In this document: in pieces, positions 2,696-56,992 of the stretch | How the letters are laid out: each line of letters opens with the position of its first letter | Position numbering within the stretch: position 1 is the stretch's first letter | From: Bdellovibrionales bacterium CG10_big_fil_rev_8_21_14_0_10_45_34 | Lineage (GTDB): Bacteria; Bdellovibrionota; Bdellovibrionia; Bdellovibrionales; 1-14-0-10-45-34 | Assembly (NCBI GenBank): GCA_002778785.1 | Contig: PEZS01000007.1 | Span: forward strand, 1 to 64,000 | Direction of reading: 5' to 3' | DNA: 64,000 nt | Program-made: the position numbers and the translations under genes | The notes under the pieces: model-generated | Database searches by the model: none | What the model was told of the DNA's origin: nothing | Seen by the model: only the letters and a program-made list of their open reading frames with translations

Positions 2696-4839
2696 TCTTT
2701 ACCTCCCGTTTTCTTTAAAGCACCATCATTGCAGTCCTTCACGCAATTATTGGGATCATCCATTTTTAGTGGCTCTTTAAGTTTGCAATCGTCCTTTGAG
2801 CTATCTAGCCTCAACATTTTAAAAGTCACGGCAGACCTTACCGTCTTCGAGGATCCCCTAACGTTGTCTTTAACAGTCTGATCAGCTAAGTAGCTGTCTG
2901 AAACGGAGCCTGTATTGTTTCCTTGTCTAAGCTCACAGTAGCGCTGGCCCATCTGTTCAAACACTTGGGTCATGACAGGGCTTCGCTCAAGATAATGTTT
3001 CGCATGCACTCTCATCATTCCTATATCGTCAATAGCCCCGGTCTGAATCATTCTAAACTTTGCATCAGAAATTTTAATGGTTGAGCAGTCTTTGGGTGCC
3101 TTTCCTTTTTCAAAAAACAGATCCATTTTCTCAGAGTCAAAGGAATCAATAACAACAGCATGGCCAAGCCCAGTCTTGTTATCTCTGACAACGAGTAAAT
3201 CCCCTTCTTTCGCCGTGTCGGTTTCATTGACCTCAACCTCTACAAAGCACGTTGATTGAACTGAAGAGGCAAGGGTTCCTGTGAAAATGCCGTTGATCGC
3301 TCTTTCAATTTTTGAGTCGCTCTGATTCGTAACAGGTGTGGGTAGCATGCCCACCAAAGCAGCGCCAGCAGCAGCGTCCTCCGTGCAGTCGGCACCGTAT
3401 CCAATCGGACGATTCGACTTGTCCTCCTTAGTCTTCCCGCCTTTTGTCTGGCACTTGAGTTCGCCGCCGCTTACAATTCGGGTGGCTCCAAAGTTAAATA
3501 TTGGTGGCGTTTCGCAGGCGCTTTTGCACTCTGGCCTACTGTCATCGCAAAAATTCTTTAAGTAAGGGTGAGTCTGCACATATTTTTTTACATTAACCAG
3601 GACTCTGTTGCTTTCTGCAAGGTGCACAACGCCGTTTTCAACTCCGCTAGCCCACTCCTGATCTTTTATGCCTTTGTCACCGGAGCCGTAAGGGCAAACT
3701 AAATATTCATCATCAAGTACGTCGCAATTTTGATAGGTTTGCGCAAGAAGCTTTCGAAAGCCTACAGCCAGGTTGGGCTCTGTTGATTTAACGGTCTCGA
3801 CTATCTCGTCAACTTCAACCGCAGCGCTAGTTTTTGGGCAGTCTTCTCCACTACACTTGGTGACTACCCTGGCTTCAGTGTCAGCATCGCGTCGTATCTT
3901 TTTTTCTTTACGATAGGCTTCAAGCTCTTCTTCACAGTTTTTTTGTTTGTCTAGGTCAAAAGTTGATACCACTCCCTCTGCTTCTACAAGTGGCATAGGA
4001 AGAGGAACCACTGTGCAACCAGGCAGCCATTCGGGGCATTCCCAATTCATACGAGCGAGAGGATTCGGAGGTGTTCCATAGTCAATAGGCGCCTGATCGA
4101 CGGCTCCTTGTTCGGGCAATCCTCGAAAACGGCGAGCGGGCATCGGGCAGTCTTCCGCTCGACCGGTCTCTTGACAACGGTCATCGTCAGTTTCGGGAGG
4201 TCTGTAGTCAGCTACCGGTTCCTCTTCCGGAACATACAGCTGAAAAGGGATTGGTGGCGGAGGAGGCGGCTCTGGTTTTGTAAGCGTATCAGGAATATCA
4301 TAGTCGCCTCTTGAACGACTGCCACGACCGCGGCTCCTCCGACTGGGAGGGGCATCCGGGCAAGGCACCATTCCACAAGTTGCCAAGCAGTACTGTATAT
4401 ATTGAGAATTCGCATAACTATGCGGACTCACGCAGCCCATCGGATATGTTGGACAACTCTGTGCCCAAGGCATCATTGGGTTATAACCACCCATCATCGA
4501 TCCAAAAGAATTCAGGCCGCCCAAACCCATACCCATTCCCATCTGAGACGCCATTCCAAGACCGAACCCTAAAGGATTCATAAAGAAAGATCCTGCACCA
4601 TACGGATTTGGGGTCAGCGCGCGCGTTCCATTTCGGAGCCATGTCTCACCCATCACATTTCGGAGCCATGTCTCACCCATCATAGGAGTCTGATGGAAAA
4701 AACCACCGCTTGCCATAAATGGGGAGCCGTAACCTCCCATGCCCCCCATCCCATACATGTATGCAGACGACTGCACGCCGATGAGCAGAACTAACACGCT
4801 CAACTGAAAAAGAAGGAGAGACCAAAGAAATCTTTTCAT
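2692..4839 (-). CDS. Large exported protein with NlpC/P60-like Cys/His arrangement
   Basis: A 715-residue exported protein. A signal peptide spans residues 1-25. It is followed by a Met/Gly-rich low-complexity stretch (about 26-130, repeated GMG and MGMG), a basic/Ser-Arg patch, a Pro-rich stretch (EPPPPPPIP) and a Cys-containing globular C-terminal half. There, YGADCTEDAAAGAAL followed about 70 residues later by EGDLLVV and GHAVVIDSF resembles the Cys ... GD ... His layout of NlpC/P60 or CHAP cysteine peptidases. This reading is tentative, because the overall sequence is not one I recognise. If correct, it may act on cell-wall peptides. It heads a two-gene unit with the 201-residue exported protein. 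A perfect 27-bp tandem duplication sits in the low-complexity region. Confidence 0.7.
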   Translation of the reverse strand: MKRFLWSLLLFQLSVLVLLIGVQSSAYMYGMGGMGGYGSPFMASGGFFHQTPMMGETWLRNVMGETWLRNGTRALTPNPYGAGSFFMNPLGFGLGMASQMGMGMGLGGLNSFGSMMGGYNPMMPWAQSCPTYPMGCVSPHSYANSQYIQYCLATCGMVPCPDAPPSRRSRGRGSRSRGDYDIPDTLTKPEPPPPPPIPFQLYVPEEEPVADYRPPETDDDRCQETGRAEDCPMPARRFRGLPEQGAVDQAPIDYGTPPNPLARMNWECPEWLPGCTVVPLPMPLVEAEGVVSTFDLDKQKNCEEELEAYRKEKKIRRDADTEARVVTKCSGEDCPKTSAAVEVDEIVETVKSTEPNLAVGFRKLLAQTYQNCDVLDDEYLVCPYGSGDKGIKDQEWASGVENGVVHLAESNRVLVNVKKYVQTHPYLKNFCDDSRPECKSACETPPIFNFGATRIVSGGELKCQTKGGKTKEDKSNRPIGYGADCTEDAAAGAALVGMLPTPVTNQSDSKIERAINGIFTGTLASSVQSTCFVEVEVNETDTAKEGDLLVVRDNKTGLGHAVVIDSFDSEKMDLFFEKGKAPKDCSTIKISDAKFRMIQTGAIDDIGMMRVHAKHYLERSPVMTQVFEQMGQRYCELRQGNNTGSVSDSYLADQTVKDNVRGSSKTVRSAVTFKMLRLDSSKDDCKLKEPLKMDDPNNCVKDCNDGALKKTGGKE
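4629..4682. repeat. Perfect 27-bp tandem duplication in frame
   Basis: Two identical 27-bp copies (4629-4655 and 4656-4682) lie head to tail inside the Met/Gly-rich part of the 715-residue exported protein. They duplicate nine codons (core MGETWLRN). Identity at every base suggests a recent slippage or duplication event. Confidence 0.9.
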
Positions 4840-34586: not shown

Positions 34587-34844
34587 ATGAAAATCGCAGC
34601 GATATCGGAACTGAAAGCTAAGTTAGCGCGATACATTAGGTTGGTAAAGTCCGGCGAGGATGTTGAGATAAGGGAACGTGGTGTTCCAGTTGCTTTGTTA
34701 ACTGCGATTCGCTCAGAGTCTGATATTTCGATAACACCACCGAGAAAAGATCCATCTTCTTTAGGAAAATTTTCGTTCTCCACAAAGCCAAAAATCAAAT
34801 TCGATGTCGTCGAGTTGATGTTAGAGGATAGGGCAAAAAGATGA
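34587..34844 (+). CDS. Type II antitoxin, Phd/YefM family
   Basis: An 85-residue DNA-binding antitoxin. The N-terminal IAAISELKAKLARYIRLVKSGEDVEIRERGVPVALL pattern (residues about 4-40, quoted by order only) is characteristic of the Phd/YefM fold. The C-terminal part is polar and probably wraps the toxin. It has an AAGAGG ribosome site and a promoter with a -10 operator. The stop overlaps the toxin ATG by 4 nt, the usual coupling in TA operons. Confidence 0.87.
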   Translation: MKIAAISELKAKLARYIRLVKSGEDVEIRERGVPVALLTAIRSESDISITPPRKDPSSLGKFSFSTKPKIKFDVVELMLEDRAKR

Positions 34845-35266
34845 TTGCCTATATAGACTCCTCGGTTTTGATGAGAGTCTTATTGGGGCAGCCGAGTGCG
34901 CTAGCTGAGTTCCGACGCATTGAACGTCCCGTCGCAAGCAAGCTGTTAAAAGTTGAAGGACTTCGAACGCTAGACCGACTAAGAGTTCGCAGTCTTCTAT
35001 CAGAATTAGAATATGTAAAAGCGGTACAAGAGTTTAGAGATGCTACTGACGCCGTCGAATGGGTTGAAATCACAGATTTGGTATTAGATCGTGTCTGTGG
35101 AAGTTTTGCCGTAGGACTTGGCACTCTAGATGCGATACATCTTGTGTCGGCACTCGTGTGGCAAGAAAAAACAAAGATGAGGCTTACGCTTTTGACTCAT
35201 GACGTGCTCCTTGGGCGAGCCGCGCGAGCCTTAGGCTTTCCTGTATTGGGATGTATCGAAGATTAG
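34841..35266 (+). CDS. PIN-domain toxin, VapC-like
   Basis: A 141-residue predicted RNase toxin that would cut RNA when freed from its antitoxin. The PIN acidic residues are visible in order: D6 (AYIDSS), E39 (LLKVEG), the LDAIH Asp near residue 98 and the LTHD Asp. The short C-terminal GFPVLG is also typical. Translation is coupled to the antitoxin by a 4-nt overlap. It belongs to the accessory island between rpe and fmt. Confidence 0.87.
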   Translation: MIAYIDSSVLMRVLLGQPSALAEFRRIERPVASKLLKVEGLRTLDRLRVRSLLSELEYVKAVQEFRDATDAVEWVEITDLVLDRVCGSFAVGLGTLDAIHLVSALVWQEKTKMRLTLLTHDVLLGRAARALGFPVLGCIED

Positions 35267-35325
35267 CGATAGCTTAAGGCAAATGAATTCGTTCGCGTAA
35301 TAAGTGTAGTCTTCCTTCCTGACCA

Positions 35326-35377
35326 GTTCTCACCGTATCGATAACTGGTCTTGACCAATTATCGATACGGTGAGAAC
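35326..35377. repeat. 52-bp near-perfect palindrome directly before the ATPase start
   Basis: Left arm 35326-35344 (begins GTTCTCACCGTATCG) and right arm 35359-35377 are exact 19-bp reverse complements. Inside them, TGGTC (35346-35350) and GACCA (35353-35357) also pair, leaving only one c/a mismatch and a 2-nt loop, so 24 base pairs in all. An alternative 7-bp pairing joins 35321-35327 (GACCAGT) with 35344-35350 (ACTGGTC). The element ends 8 nt before the ATG at 35386, and its right arm contains the only candidate ribosome site (GGTGAG). Confidence 0.93.
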
Positions 35378-35385
35378 ATCAGAAC

Positions 35386-36561
35386 ATGGCAACAAGATAC
35401 CTTAAGGCGGCGGTAGAAGCGGATGCCCTTGCTGATTACAAAATGGCCTTCATTAGTGGCCCTCGGCAAGTTGGAAAGACAACGCTCGCAAAACAAATGC
35501 TCACTTCATCGGCGAACTACTTTTCTTGGGATAATGGCGACTTTAGAAAGCAGTGGTCGAAGTCGCCACTTAAAGCCATCGAGCTAGCCGAAAAAGGGCC
35601 CGTTCTACTTGATGAAATTCATAAAGATCGCAACTGGAAATCTCGAATTAAGGGAATATACGATACAGTTGGTAATGAAATCCCTATCTTGGTAACTGGT
35701 AGTGCACGACTGGATCTTTACAGAAAGGGAGGCGACAGCTTACTGGGGCGCTACATACCCTATCGGCTGCATCCATTCTCCGTTGGCGAGAGAGACTATC
35801 CAATTACGCCTGATGAAATCCTCCAAAGTCTGACGGTAGAATACAAGTGGTCAGATCTAATGGCACTCGGAGGCTTCCCTGAGCCATTCATCGCCGGTAA
35901 CGCCAACAAAGCCCAACGATGGAGCCGTTTAAGACTTGATCGACTGGCTTACGAAGACACCCGAGACATAAAGGTTTTGTCCGACTTAAATGCCTTTCGC
36001 GTTATGCTGGATCTAATACCAGACAAAGTAGGAAGCTTGTTTTCTTTTAACTCGCTGAGGGAAGACGTAGGCGTCGCGTATTCCACGGTAAGAGATTGGG
36101 TCCTGCTCTCCGAGAACCTATATTACGGTTTTTTTATAAGACCATACTCTAAAGGAATAAAGAGATCGCTAAGGGCTGAGCCCAAATTCTATCTTTACGA
36201 TATTTTACAGATCCCAGAGAAGAACTTCAGTCAAAGAATCGAAAACTTAACTGCACTGCATTTGCTGAAGGCCTGCCACTTCTGGACTGATACGGCCCAA
36301 GGATTTTTTGAGTTGCATTTTTTGCGAGATAAAGAAAAGAGAGAAGTGGATTTTTTGATTTGTAGAAACCGAAAGCCTTGGATGCTTTTAGAGTGCAAAT
36401 CAGGATCTACAAGCGTTTCGTCTAACTTAGTCCACTTTAAGTCCCAACTCAAAACGCCGCTGAACTTTCAACTCGTCGATAAACGCAATTTTGACAAAGA
36501 GTTTCCCGCACAAAATGTCCGAATAATTAACTATGAGAAGTTCTTCTCGGGAATGATTTAA
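35386..36561 (+). CDS. AAA_14/DUF4143 ATPase with PD-(D/E)xK-like C-terminus
   Basis: A 391-residue P-loop ATPase of a family widespread in bacteria and archaea whose function is poorly known. Walker A is GPRQVGKTT (25-33) and Walker B is PVLLDEIHK near residue 73. VTGSARLDLYRKGGDSLLGR matches the family sensor block. The C-terminal DUF4143 part has REVDFLI ... LLECKSG, the EVD-x(n)-ExK pattern of PD-(D/E)xK nucleases. Its translation start is embedded beside a 52-bp palindrome. It is part of an island with a TA module. A second family member lies at 55707-56867. Confidence 0.9.
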   Translation: MATRYLKAAVEADALADYKMAFISGPRQVGKTTLAKQMLTSSANYFSWDNGDFRKQWSKSPLKAIELAEKGPVLLDEIHKDRNWKSRIKGIYDTVGNEIPILVTGSARLDLYRKGGDSLLGRYIPYRLHPFSVGERDYPITPDEILQSLTVEYKWSDLMALGGFPEPFIAGNANKAQRWSRLRLDRLAYEDTRDIKVLSDLNAFRVMLDLIPDKVGSLFSFNSLREDVGVAYSTVRDWVLLSENLYYGFFIRPYSKGIKRSLRAEPKFYLYDILQIPEKNFSQRIENLTALHLLKACHFWTDTAQGFFELHFLRDKEKREVDFLICRNRKPWMLLECKSGSTSVSSNLVHFKSQLKTPLNFQLVDKRNFDKEFPAQNVRIINYEKFFSGMI

Positions 36562-55706: not shown

Positions 55707-56867
55707 CTAGCGTTTTGTTATTTGTAGAATTCCTTCTTTTAGCGGCCAGATCTCGATGCCATCTACCAATTGCTGCCGCTCAGCCAGGCACAACACCATT
55801 GCTCTATGGGGTTTGTCATAAAACCCCGCAAAACTCTTTAGACCAGAAAGCTCCGACTGAGCCACTGCTCTCGCAGACTTTACTTCAATCGCGAATACTT
55901 TCGACTCTGTCTGAACTATAAAATCAACCTCTGCCCCTGCATCTGTTCTGTAGTGACTCACTCTTACCTGTCGATCTTGACCCTTAAACGAAGATAGTAA
56001 CAACTGCAGAACCAAATTCTCTAAAAGCTTGCCTTTTCTGTCGTCAGAAACATTGAAGTTTCCGAGTGATCCGTTGAGAGCTCCCACATCAAAAAAGTAG
56101 AATCGCGGGTGCTGTATTATTCGGCGTCTGGTACTTTTAGCGAAAGCTTCGATTCGATTTAATATAAGTGTGTATTCAAGGATTTCAAAATATCGCTTTG
56201 CGGTTGTGCGCTCGATTTGAGCTTCTGATGAAAACTTCGCGATATCAAAAAGCTCAGCATTGCGTGAGGCAACTACAGAGAAAAAACGACTGAACCCTTC
56301 TAAGTTTCTTGTTAAAGCTTCTGCTTGCACCTCTTCTTGAAGATAGGTTACAGCATAGGTTCGAAGTACCTTTCGCCAAACTACATCTGAAGAGTCTAAA
56401 TAGATCCCTGGCAGCAGCCCTCGTATCAGCGCTTTTTTTAAATCGAATTGGTCGCCCAGCTCCTCGATAGATAATGGCCTCATTTCATAGCTCACAATCC
56501 GCCCAGGAAGTAGGTTGGCGTTTCCGCGCTTTAGCTTTCGAGCACTAGAGCTTGTTAGATAAAAGCGAAGTTTAGGATTCTCATCAATTAACGATTGAAC
56601 TGTATTCAGAAGCGAAGGCAGCCTTTGGACTTCGTCGATGAAAACACTTAGTCTCTCACCGCTTGCTACCCTTGAATGAACTTCACTTTCTAGAAGCCCT
56701 GGGTTCGATAGAAAGTCCAAATAGACTAGCTGCCTGGCCAGGTTGATCTCTAAATCTGGTTTCAGCTGCCTTATAAACGTTGATTTGCCAGTTTGACGCG
56801 GTCCAATAAGCAAAAACGACTTATCTATCTATTTGATTTCATTAGATATTTTTCTTTCTAGGAGCAT
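55707..56867 (-). pseudogene. AAA_14/DUF4143 ATPase with an in-frame amber codon
   Basis: A second member of the family at 35386. Residues after the stop read LIGPRQTGKST (Walker A), LSVFIDEVQRL (Walker B), FYLTSSSARKL and GNANLLPGRI, then the nuclease-like GAEVDFIV ... FAIEVKSARA. The normal N-terminus is intact from ATG 56867 (MLLERKISNEIK), but codon 13 is TAG (56829-56831), immediately followed in frame by IDKSFLLIGPRQ. A TTG at 56813 might restart translation with 368 residues, which begins exactly at the Walker A strand. Either a recent nonsense mutation (for example CAG to TAG) or suppression is possible. It sits between bolA and grxD. Confidence 0.82.
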
Positions 56868-56899
56868 GTGCTCATTTTACAATGTATTTTGAGCACATG
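56865..56899. repeat. Inverted repeat over the start of the second DUF4143 gene
   Basis: CATGTGCTCA (56865-56874) and TGAGCACATG (56890-56899) are perfect 10-bp arms with a 15-nt spacer. The first arm contains the ATG (complement) of the ancestral full-length ATPase. It is analogous in position, though not in sequence, to the 52-bp palindrome before the first family member. Confidence 0.75.
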
Positions 56900-56992
56900 T
56901 CAACGAAGCCTGCTTTTCAACTTGCGCTCAGATTTGCGGGAAAGGTAACTGAAAGAGGCACTCCGCCGCAAGTATGCTTAAGCGGGGCCGGT

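Follow-up and report, generated by a model that had tools for sequence, protein, structure and literature searches.

A probable palindromic operator-promoter element at the start of a DUF4143 ATPase-nuclease gene: a candidate for autoregulation

Upon analyzing a 64-kb window (the whole stretch of 64,000 nucleotides under study) from a Bdellovibrionales bacterium, we concluded that a 52-bp palindrome at the start of a gene encoding a DUF4143 protein is probably the operator part of that gene's own operator-promoter, and thus a candidate site for autoregulation by the encoded protein. An initial annotation of this DNA had offered two readings of the palindrome, as a binding or cleavage target of the protein itself or as a translational switch that hides the ribosome site, and had likened the unit to self-regulating or selfish elements. 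Because the test for palindromes at the starts of homologous genes was positive, the palindrome as a putative binding target of the DUF4143 protein is now the best-supported of these readings, while the translational switch was not supported. The comparison with selfish elements gains indirect support, as the unit consists of a single gene that is found across phyla and has no conserved partner gene.

The palindrome and the DUF4143 gene of the window

The palindrome (35326–35377, not assigned to a strand) was confirmed as an inverted repeat (35326–35350 and 35353–35377) with 25-nt arms, 24 of 25 positions of which are paired (96%), around a 2-nt TT centre; the 24 of 26 possible base pairs counted previously agree with this value if the T-T in the middle counts as one more position. 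No other palindrome in the 64 kb reaches a score of 14, and arms of this quality are expected by chance about 4e-8 times in a sequence of that length, assuming equal base frequencies. The element folds with z = −6.0 as RNA and z = −9.0 as DNA, and, as originally described, its 3' end lies 8 nt before an ATG, at 35386.

The competing 7-bp pairing noted earlier (35321–35327 with 35344–35350, GACCAGT/ACTGGTC) is real as well, and it belongs to the first of two tandem dyads that follow a 32-bp period (TGACC at 35320 and 35352), a feature that the family shares. The predicted first dyad of the operator (35320–35351, forward strand; TGACCAGTT ... AACTGGTC), a 32-bp repeat unit that includes the competing pairing, is supported by the period seen in the family and by a symmetry axis at −15.5 from the −35 hexamer; the second dyad (TTGACCAATT) overlaps the −35 hexamer. 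The latter, predicted to be TTGACC (35351–35356, forward strand), falls at the centre of the palindrome and at the position that TTGAC occupies in the family. The candidate −10 hexamer, GAACAT (35374–35379, forward strand), is weak and separated by a 17-bp spacer; it was assigned because TAACAT is found at the same spacing in the closest homologue, L068. A generic promoter scan of the window called no promoter at the palindrome, GAACAT included. We also considered and rejected an intrinsic terminator or a known RNA leader, as no T-run follows the stem and an Rfam search returned no match. Separately, a 14-bp exact match to the palindrome is present in the promoter region of a paralogue in the same genome (L008; contig C6:242255–242268); about 2.6 such matches are expected per genome by chance, and the match may reflect either cross-regulation or coincidence.

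The DUF4143 gene itself (35386–36561, forward strand; 391 aa) is an intact open reading frame with an ATG near the expected transcription start. Its assignment to AAA_14 (E = 2e-24, 86.6 bits against a cut-off of 27) and DUF4143 (E = 5e-20, 72.2 bits against 28.1) was confirmed, and PADLOC identified the protein as PDC-S01 (E = 7e-45), the models of which cover this protein and its relatives over nearly their full length. An AAA+ ATPase domain (Walker A at residues 25–33) is followed by a winged helix (residues about 201–275) and a PD-(D/E)xK domain (D322, E336, K338); the P-loop (GPRQVGKTT) and Walker B are intact, and D322, E336 and K338 are invariant in our family alignment (A1). The same three regions, the PD-(D/E)xK region being C-terminal, are found in an AlphaFold model of the protein (mean pLDDT 88), in which, by our reading of the secondary structure, the winged helix would be formed by helices 201–214, 221–228 and 232–244 and strands 248–253 and 267–270. 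Helix-turn-helix profiles gave weak matches in several family members. The best fold match in the PDB was DNA-bound Orc1/Cdc6 (2qby, 2v1u), an AAA+ protein with a winged helix, at a low TM-score of 0.27; further matches, all with low TM-scores, included clamp loaders, RuvB and STAND ATPases among others, and a sequence search of solved structures found no homologue beyond P-loop-type matches.

PDC-S01, an ATPase fused to a PD-(D/E)xK domain, has been reported as the fourth most common candidate defence gene across prokaryotes; most PDCs still await validation by experiment (PMC12988326). DUF4143/PDC-S01 is a very common, uncharacterised candidate phage-defence family; no experimental mechanism for PDC-S01 was found in the papers searched. 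In a first look at the phylum, some genomes (G148, G151, G107 and others) contained 40–60 DUF4143 candidates, and a phylum survey returned no DUF4143 match in the searched species of one large genus (g14).

Directly upstream of the palindrome lies a Phd/YefM-like and PIN-like gene pair (34587–35266), both members of which score just below the Pfam cut-off. An association with this pair was considered and rejected, as the pair does not recur beside DUF4143 genes in the 82 loci examined; the gene directly upstream of a DUF4143 gene on a Thermus plasmid (L188) is annotated as PilT, a PIN-type name. Downstream of the DUF4143 gene, on the opposite strand, is a formyltransferase gene (fmt-like). The window also contains a second, diverged DUF4143 gene (55836–56903, reverse strand), preceded by TTGACA-18-TAAAAT-6-ATG inside a GTGCTCA/TGAGCAC dyad; an in-frame TAG lies about 13 codons downstream of the probable start of this gene, and the promoter and dyad layout are kept.

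Palindromes and predicted promoters at the starts of homologues

The set of homologues comprised the DUF4143 genes of the same genome, those of relatives from the same order, and 80 loci from many phyla. Start codons were chosen blind to promoters, and the controls were regions upstream of the other genes in these loci. Palindromes with a score of at least 12 were found at the starts of 37 of 112 DUF4143 genes versus 6 of 216 other genes (p = 6e-14), so that the initial proposal that palindromes of any sequence would recur at this place in homologues was borne out. Bias from picking start codons by promoter score was rejected as an explanation, as the promoter-blind starts gave the same result.

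The palindromes located just upstream of the start are unrelated in sequence; examples are those of L049 (70 bp), L138 (66 bp), L134 (64 bp), L058 (62 bp), L032 and L035 (51 bp each) and L068 (52 bp), the last with the geometry observed in the window. In a more distant DUF4143 subfamily the palindromes finish at or near the ATG. When loci are read in gene orientation, the palindromes lie upstream of the gene and their half-sites are often split; many homologues have spaced half-sites only, without a continuous hairpin. A long continuous palindrome is absent from roughly two-thirds of the DUF4143 genes, and TTGAC is missing from its expected position in about half. Strict scanning at first found no palindrome at the starts of the genome's other DUF4143 genes, and three Thermus or archaeal plasmid members that were examined had no clear palindrome. 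Members of the more distant subfamily on complete plasmids from Spirosoma linguale and from Moraxella bovis have start palindromes with 21-bp arms and the same layout; the arrangement is therefore not an assembly artefact. In the S. linguale gene (Slin_6960, strain DSM 74) the palindrome directly adjoins the ATG. Elsewhere in the genome of the window, two near-identical 57-bp palindromes with 27-bp perfect arms (AAAGGTACGGAGTCACTT...; L004:196–252 and 3027–3083, contig C10) flank a decayed DUF4143 remnant and apparently belong to a distinct family of dispersed palindromes.

The family also has a characteristic promoter layout. TTGAC occurs 33–38 nt before the start codon in 51 of 112 DUF4143 genes, compared with 5 of 216 controls (p = 1e-22), and the best −10 match mostly ends 6–8 nt before the start codon. 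From this spacing we infer that DUF4143 genes have a sigma70-like promoter with a start point at the start codon, which would yield a leaderless message; relatives L043 and L048 have ribosome sites and longer leaders. When 106 genes were lined up by their start codons, the correlation for direct repeats peaked at exactly 32 bp with z = 23, the next lag reaching 4.4, z-scores that are inflated by sequence relatedness, which does not favour one particular lag. Anchoring 50 genes on TTGAC placed the axes of inverted symmetry at −15.5, +0.5, +17.5 and +33.5, an architecture of alternating half-sites every 16–17 bp across the −35 and −10 hexamers. The element takes the form gac.a...A.TaGtC|TTGACta.att...AAAAT.G.c..ATG, and in the DUF4143 family the symmetric sites overlap, at a constant position, the predicted promoter of the gene itself.

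Evolution of the proposed operator and its likely reader

The arms of the palindrome have changed in a compensatory manner. Relative to L068, the protein of which is 59% identical to that of the window, they differ by six double changes that keep the pairing and two single changes (p = 2.6e-4), and relative to L070 by eight double and three single changes. Within the family, similarity to the operator belonging to the nearest protein ranks at the 94th percentile; if the comparison is made with a protein from another phylum, the rank is the 86th percentile (p = 3e-10), as compared with the 56th percentile for a control flank further upstream. In these comparisons, the sequence of the operator tracks the protein across phyla and not the host. 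Paralogues in the same genome have operators that, on average, resemble one another no more than background. Similarity-threshold clustering placed almost every operator in a single group. When two domains were compared for co-variation with the operator, the winged helix gave a partial correlation of 0.07 and the nuclease domain one of 0.17, values that do not single out a reading domain. Within 1.2 kb, no neighbour other than another DUF4143 gene recurred in the 82 loci. As the operator travels with a single gene, its reader would most simply be the product of that gene. A second copy of the operator, 83% identical, was detected in the same genome (L016:1501–1552; contig C11:315869–315920) between lytic-transglycosylase-like and aspartokinase-like genes, with no adjoining DUF4143 gene; it may be either a target in trans or the relic of a lost copy.

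We propose that the DUF4143 protein would bind the half-sites cooperatively as a symmetric oligomer, the two dyads being three helical turns apart, and that the bound protein would cover the promoter and repress its own leaderless transcription. Diversion of the protein or a change in its state, for example through binding of foreign DNA or ATP turnover, would then derepress the gene. Since the operators of paralogues differ in sequence, the numerous copies within a genome would not have to regulate one another.

Among the alternatives, an extruded cruciform or hairpin that is recognized or cut by its shape, such that any pairing arms would serve, accounts for the unrelated arm sequences, many of which are perfect over 50–66 bp (L049, L058, L138, L134), for the compensatory arm changes, and for the invariant D, E and K of the PD-(D/E)xK domain. 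We nonetheless consider such a structural target unlikely: many homologues pair only spaced half-sites and can form no long hairpin, yet retain the 32-bp period and the position of the promoter; related proteins keep the half-site sequence across phyla, which a target read by shape alone would not need; and a cut site within the gene's own promoter would come at a cost. Somewhat less probable still is a genuine operator that is read by another host protein, such as a silencer of defence genes or an SOS-like regulator. Known regulators of defence genes are usually separate proteins, as are RptR, BrxR/CapW and CapR (PMC12255303), but such a reader fits poorly with operators that differ among the paralogues of one genome and yet are common to related proteins across phyla, and no regulator gene recurs nearby in the 82 loci.

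The idea of an RNA switch, in which a transcribed palindrome would mask or free the ribosome site with the two dyads as alternative folds, drew on the strong RNA fold (z = −6.0) and on the location of the sole candidate ribosome site in the right arm. However, the predicted −35 hexamer occupies the middle of the palindrome and transcription is expected to start at about the ATG, so that the palindrome is at or upstream of the start of the message, which makes a translational switch very unlikely; nor does a leaderless message need a ribosome site, leaving the switch unsupported. In addition, the Rfam search returned no match, and some palindromes reach or cross the start codon while the promoter layout is kept. 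Least probable, and largely refuted, is a dispersed repeat (REP, MITE) or mobile-element end lying beside the gene by chance, for which the 83% identical copy away from any DUF4143 gene would speak, but only that one further copy is found in 3.06 Mb, homologues have palindromes with unrelated sequences at the same position, and the arms evolve in a compensatory manner.

Autoregulation by the DUF4143 protein invites a broader and decidedly more tentative suggestion, that DUF4143/PDC-S01 may be an all-in-one defence gene, which would encode both an attacker of foreign DNA and its own sequence-specific repressor, with a private operator for each paralogue. Expression would be released when invading or replicating DNA pulled the protein away from its operator, which would act as a sensor switch and at the same time record, in readable form, the DNA for which the protein is specific. 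In Thermus carrying a plasmid, RNA of a DUF4143 gene was raised 6.6-fold, only when Argonaute was present (PMC4406477), an observation that is suggestive but indirect.

Comparison with known systems

The protein of the window shares with PDC-S01, as described, the fusion of an ATPase to PD-(D/E)xK (PMC12988326); the papers found mention no operator or promoter architecture for PDC-S01, and its defence role is that of a candidate. No family-wide, self-carried operator on DUF4143 genes came up in the literature searched, which excludes most preprints and most articles in subscription journals.

Palindromic autoregulation as such is an already known kind of control. Type II toxin-antitoxin systems are mobile units that repress their own promoters via palindromic operators; the DUF4143 unit differs in being a single gene, with no antitoxin partner conserved in the 82 loci. 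With Orc1/Cdc6 and other AAA+ winged-helix proteins, the DUF4143 protein has in common the layout of an AAA+ domain plus a winged helix, and Orc1/Cdc6 genes often adjoin inverted repeats that they bind. In contrast to those proteins, to which the fold match is low (TM-score 0.27), the DUF4143 protein has an extra PD-(D/E)xK domain and its sites would lie over the gene's promoter; no evidence of an origin emerged.

RptR, BrxR/CapW and CapR, repressors that act on palindromes or repeats over the promoters of defence genes, their own included (PMC12255303), offer a comparison within defence. They are encoded by separate regulator genes and have short, fixed sites (TAGCTA for RptR), whereas DUF4143 genes have no regulator gene nearby and a long site that differs between paralogues. 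If DUF4143 genes do carry their cognate sites, the binding sites of thousands of members could be read from sequence, each protein would come with a ready DNA substrate for binding, structural and cleavage tests, and the mechanism would be directly testable. The defence effector would then be its own regulator, unlike the separate repressors known to date.
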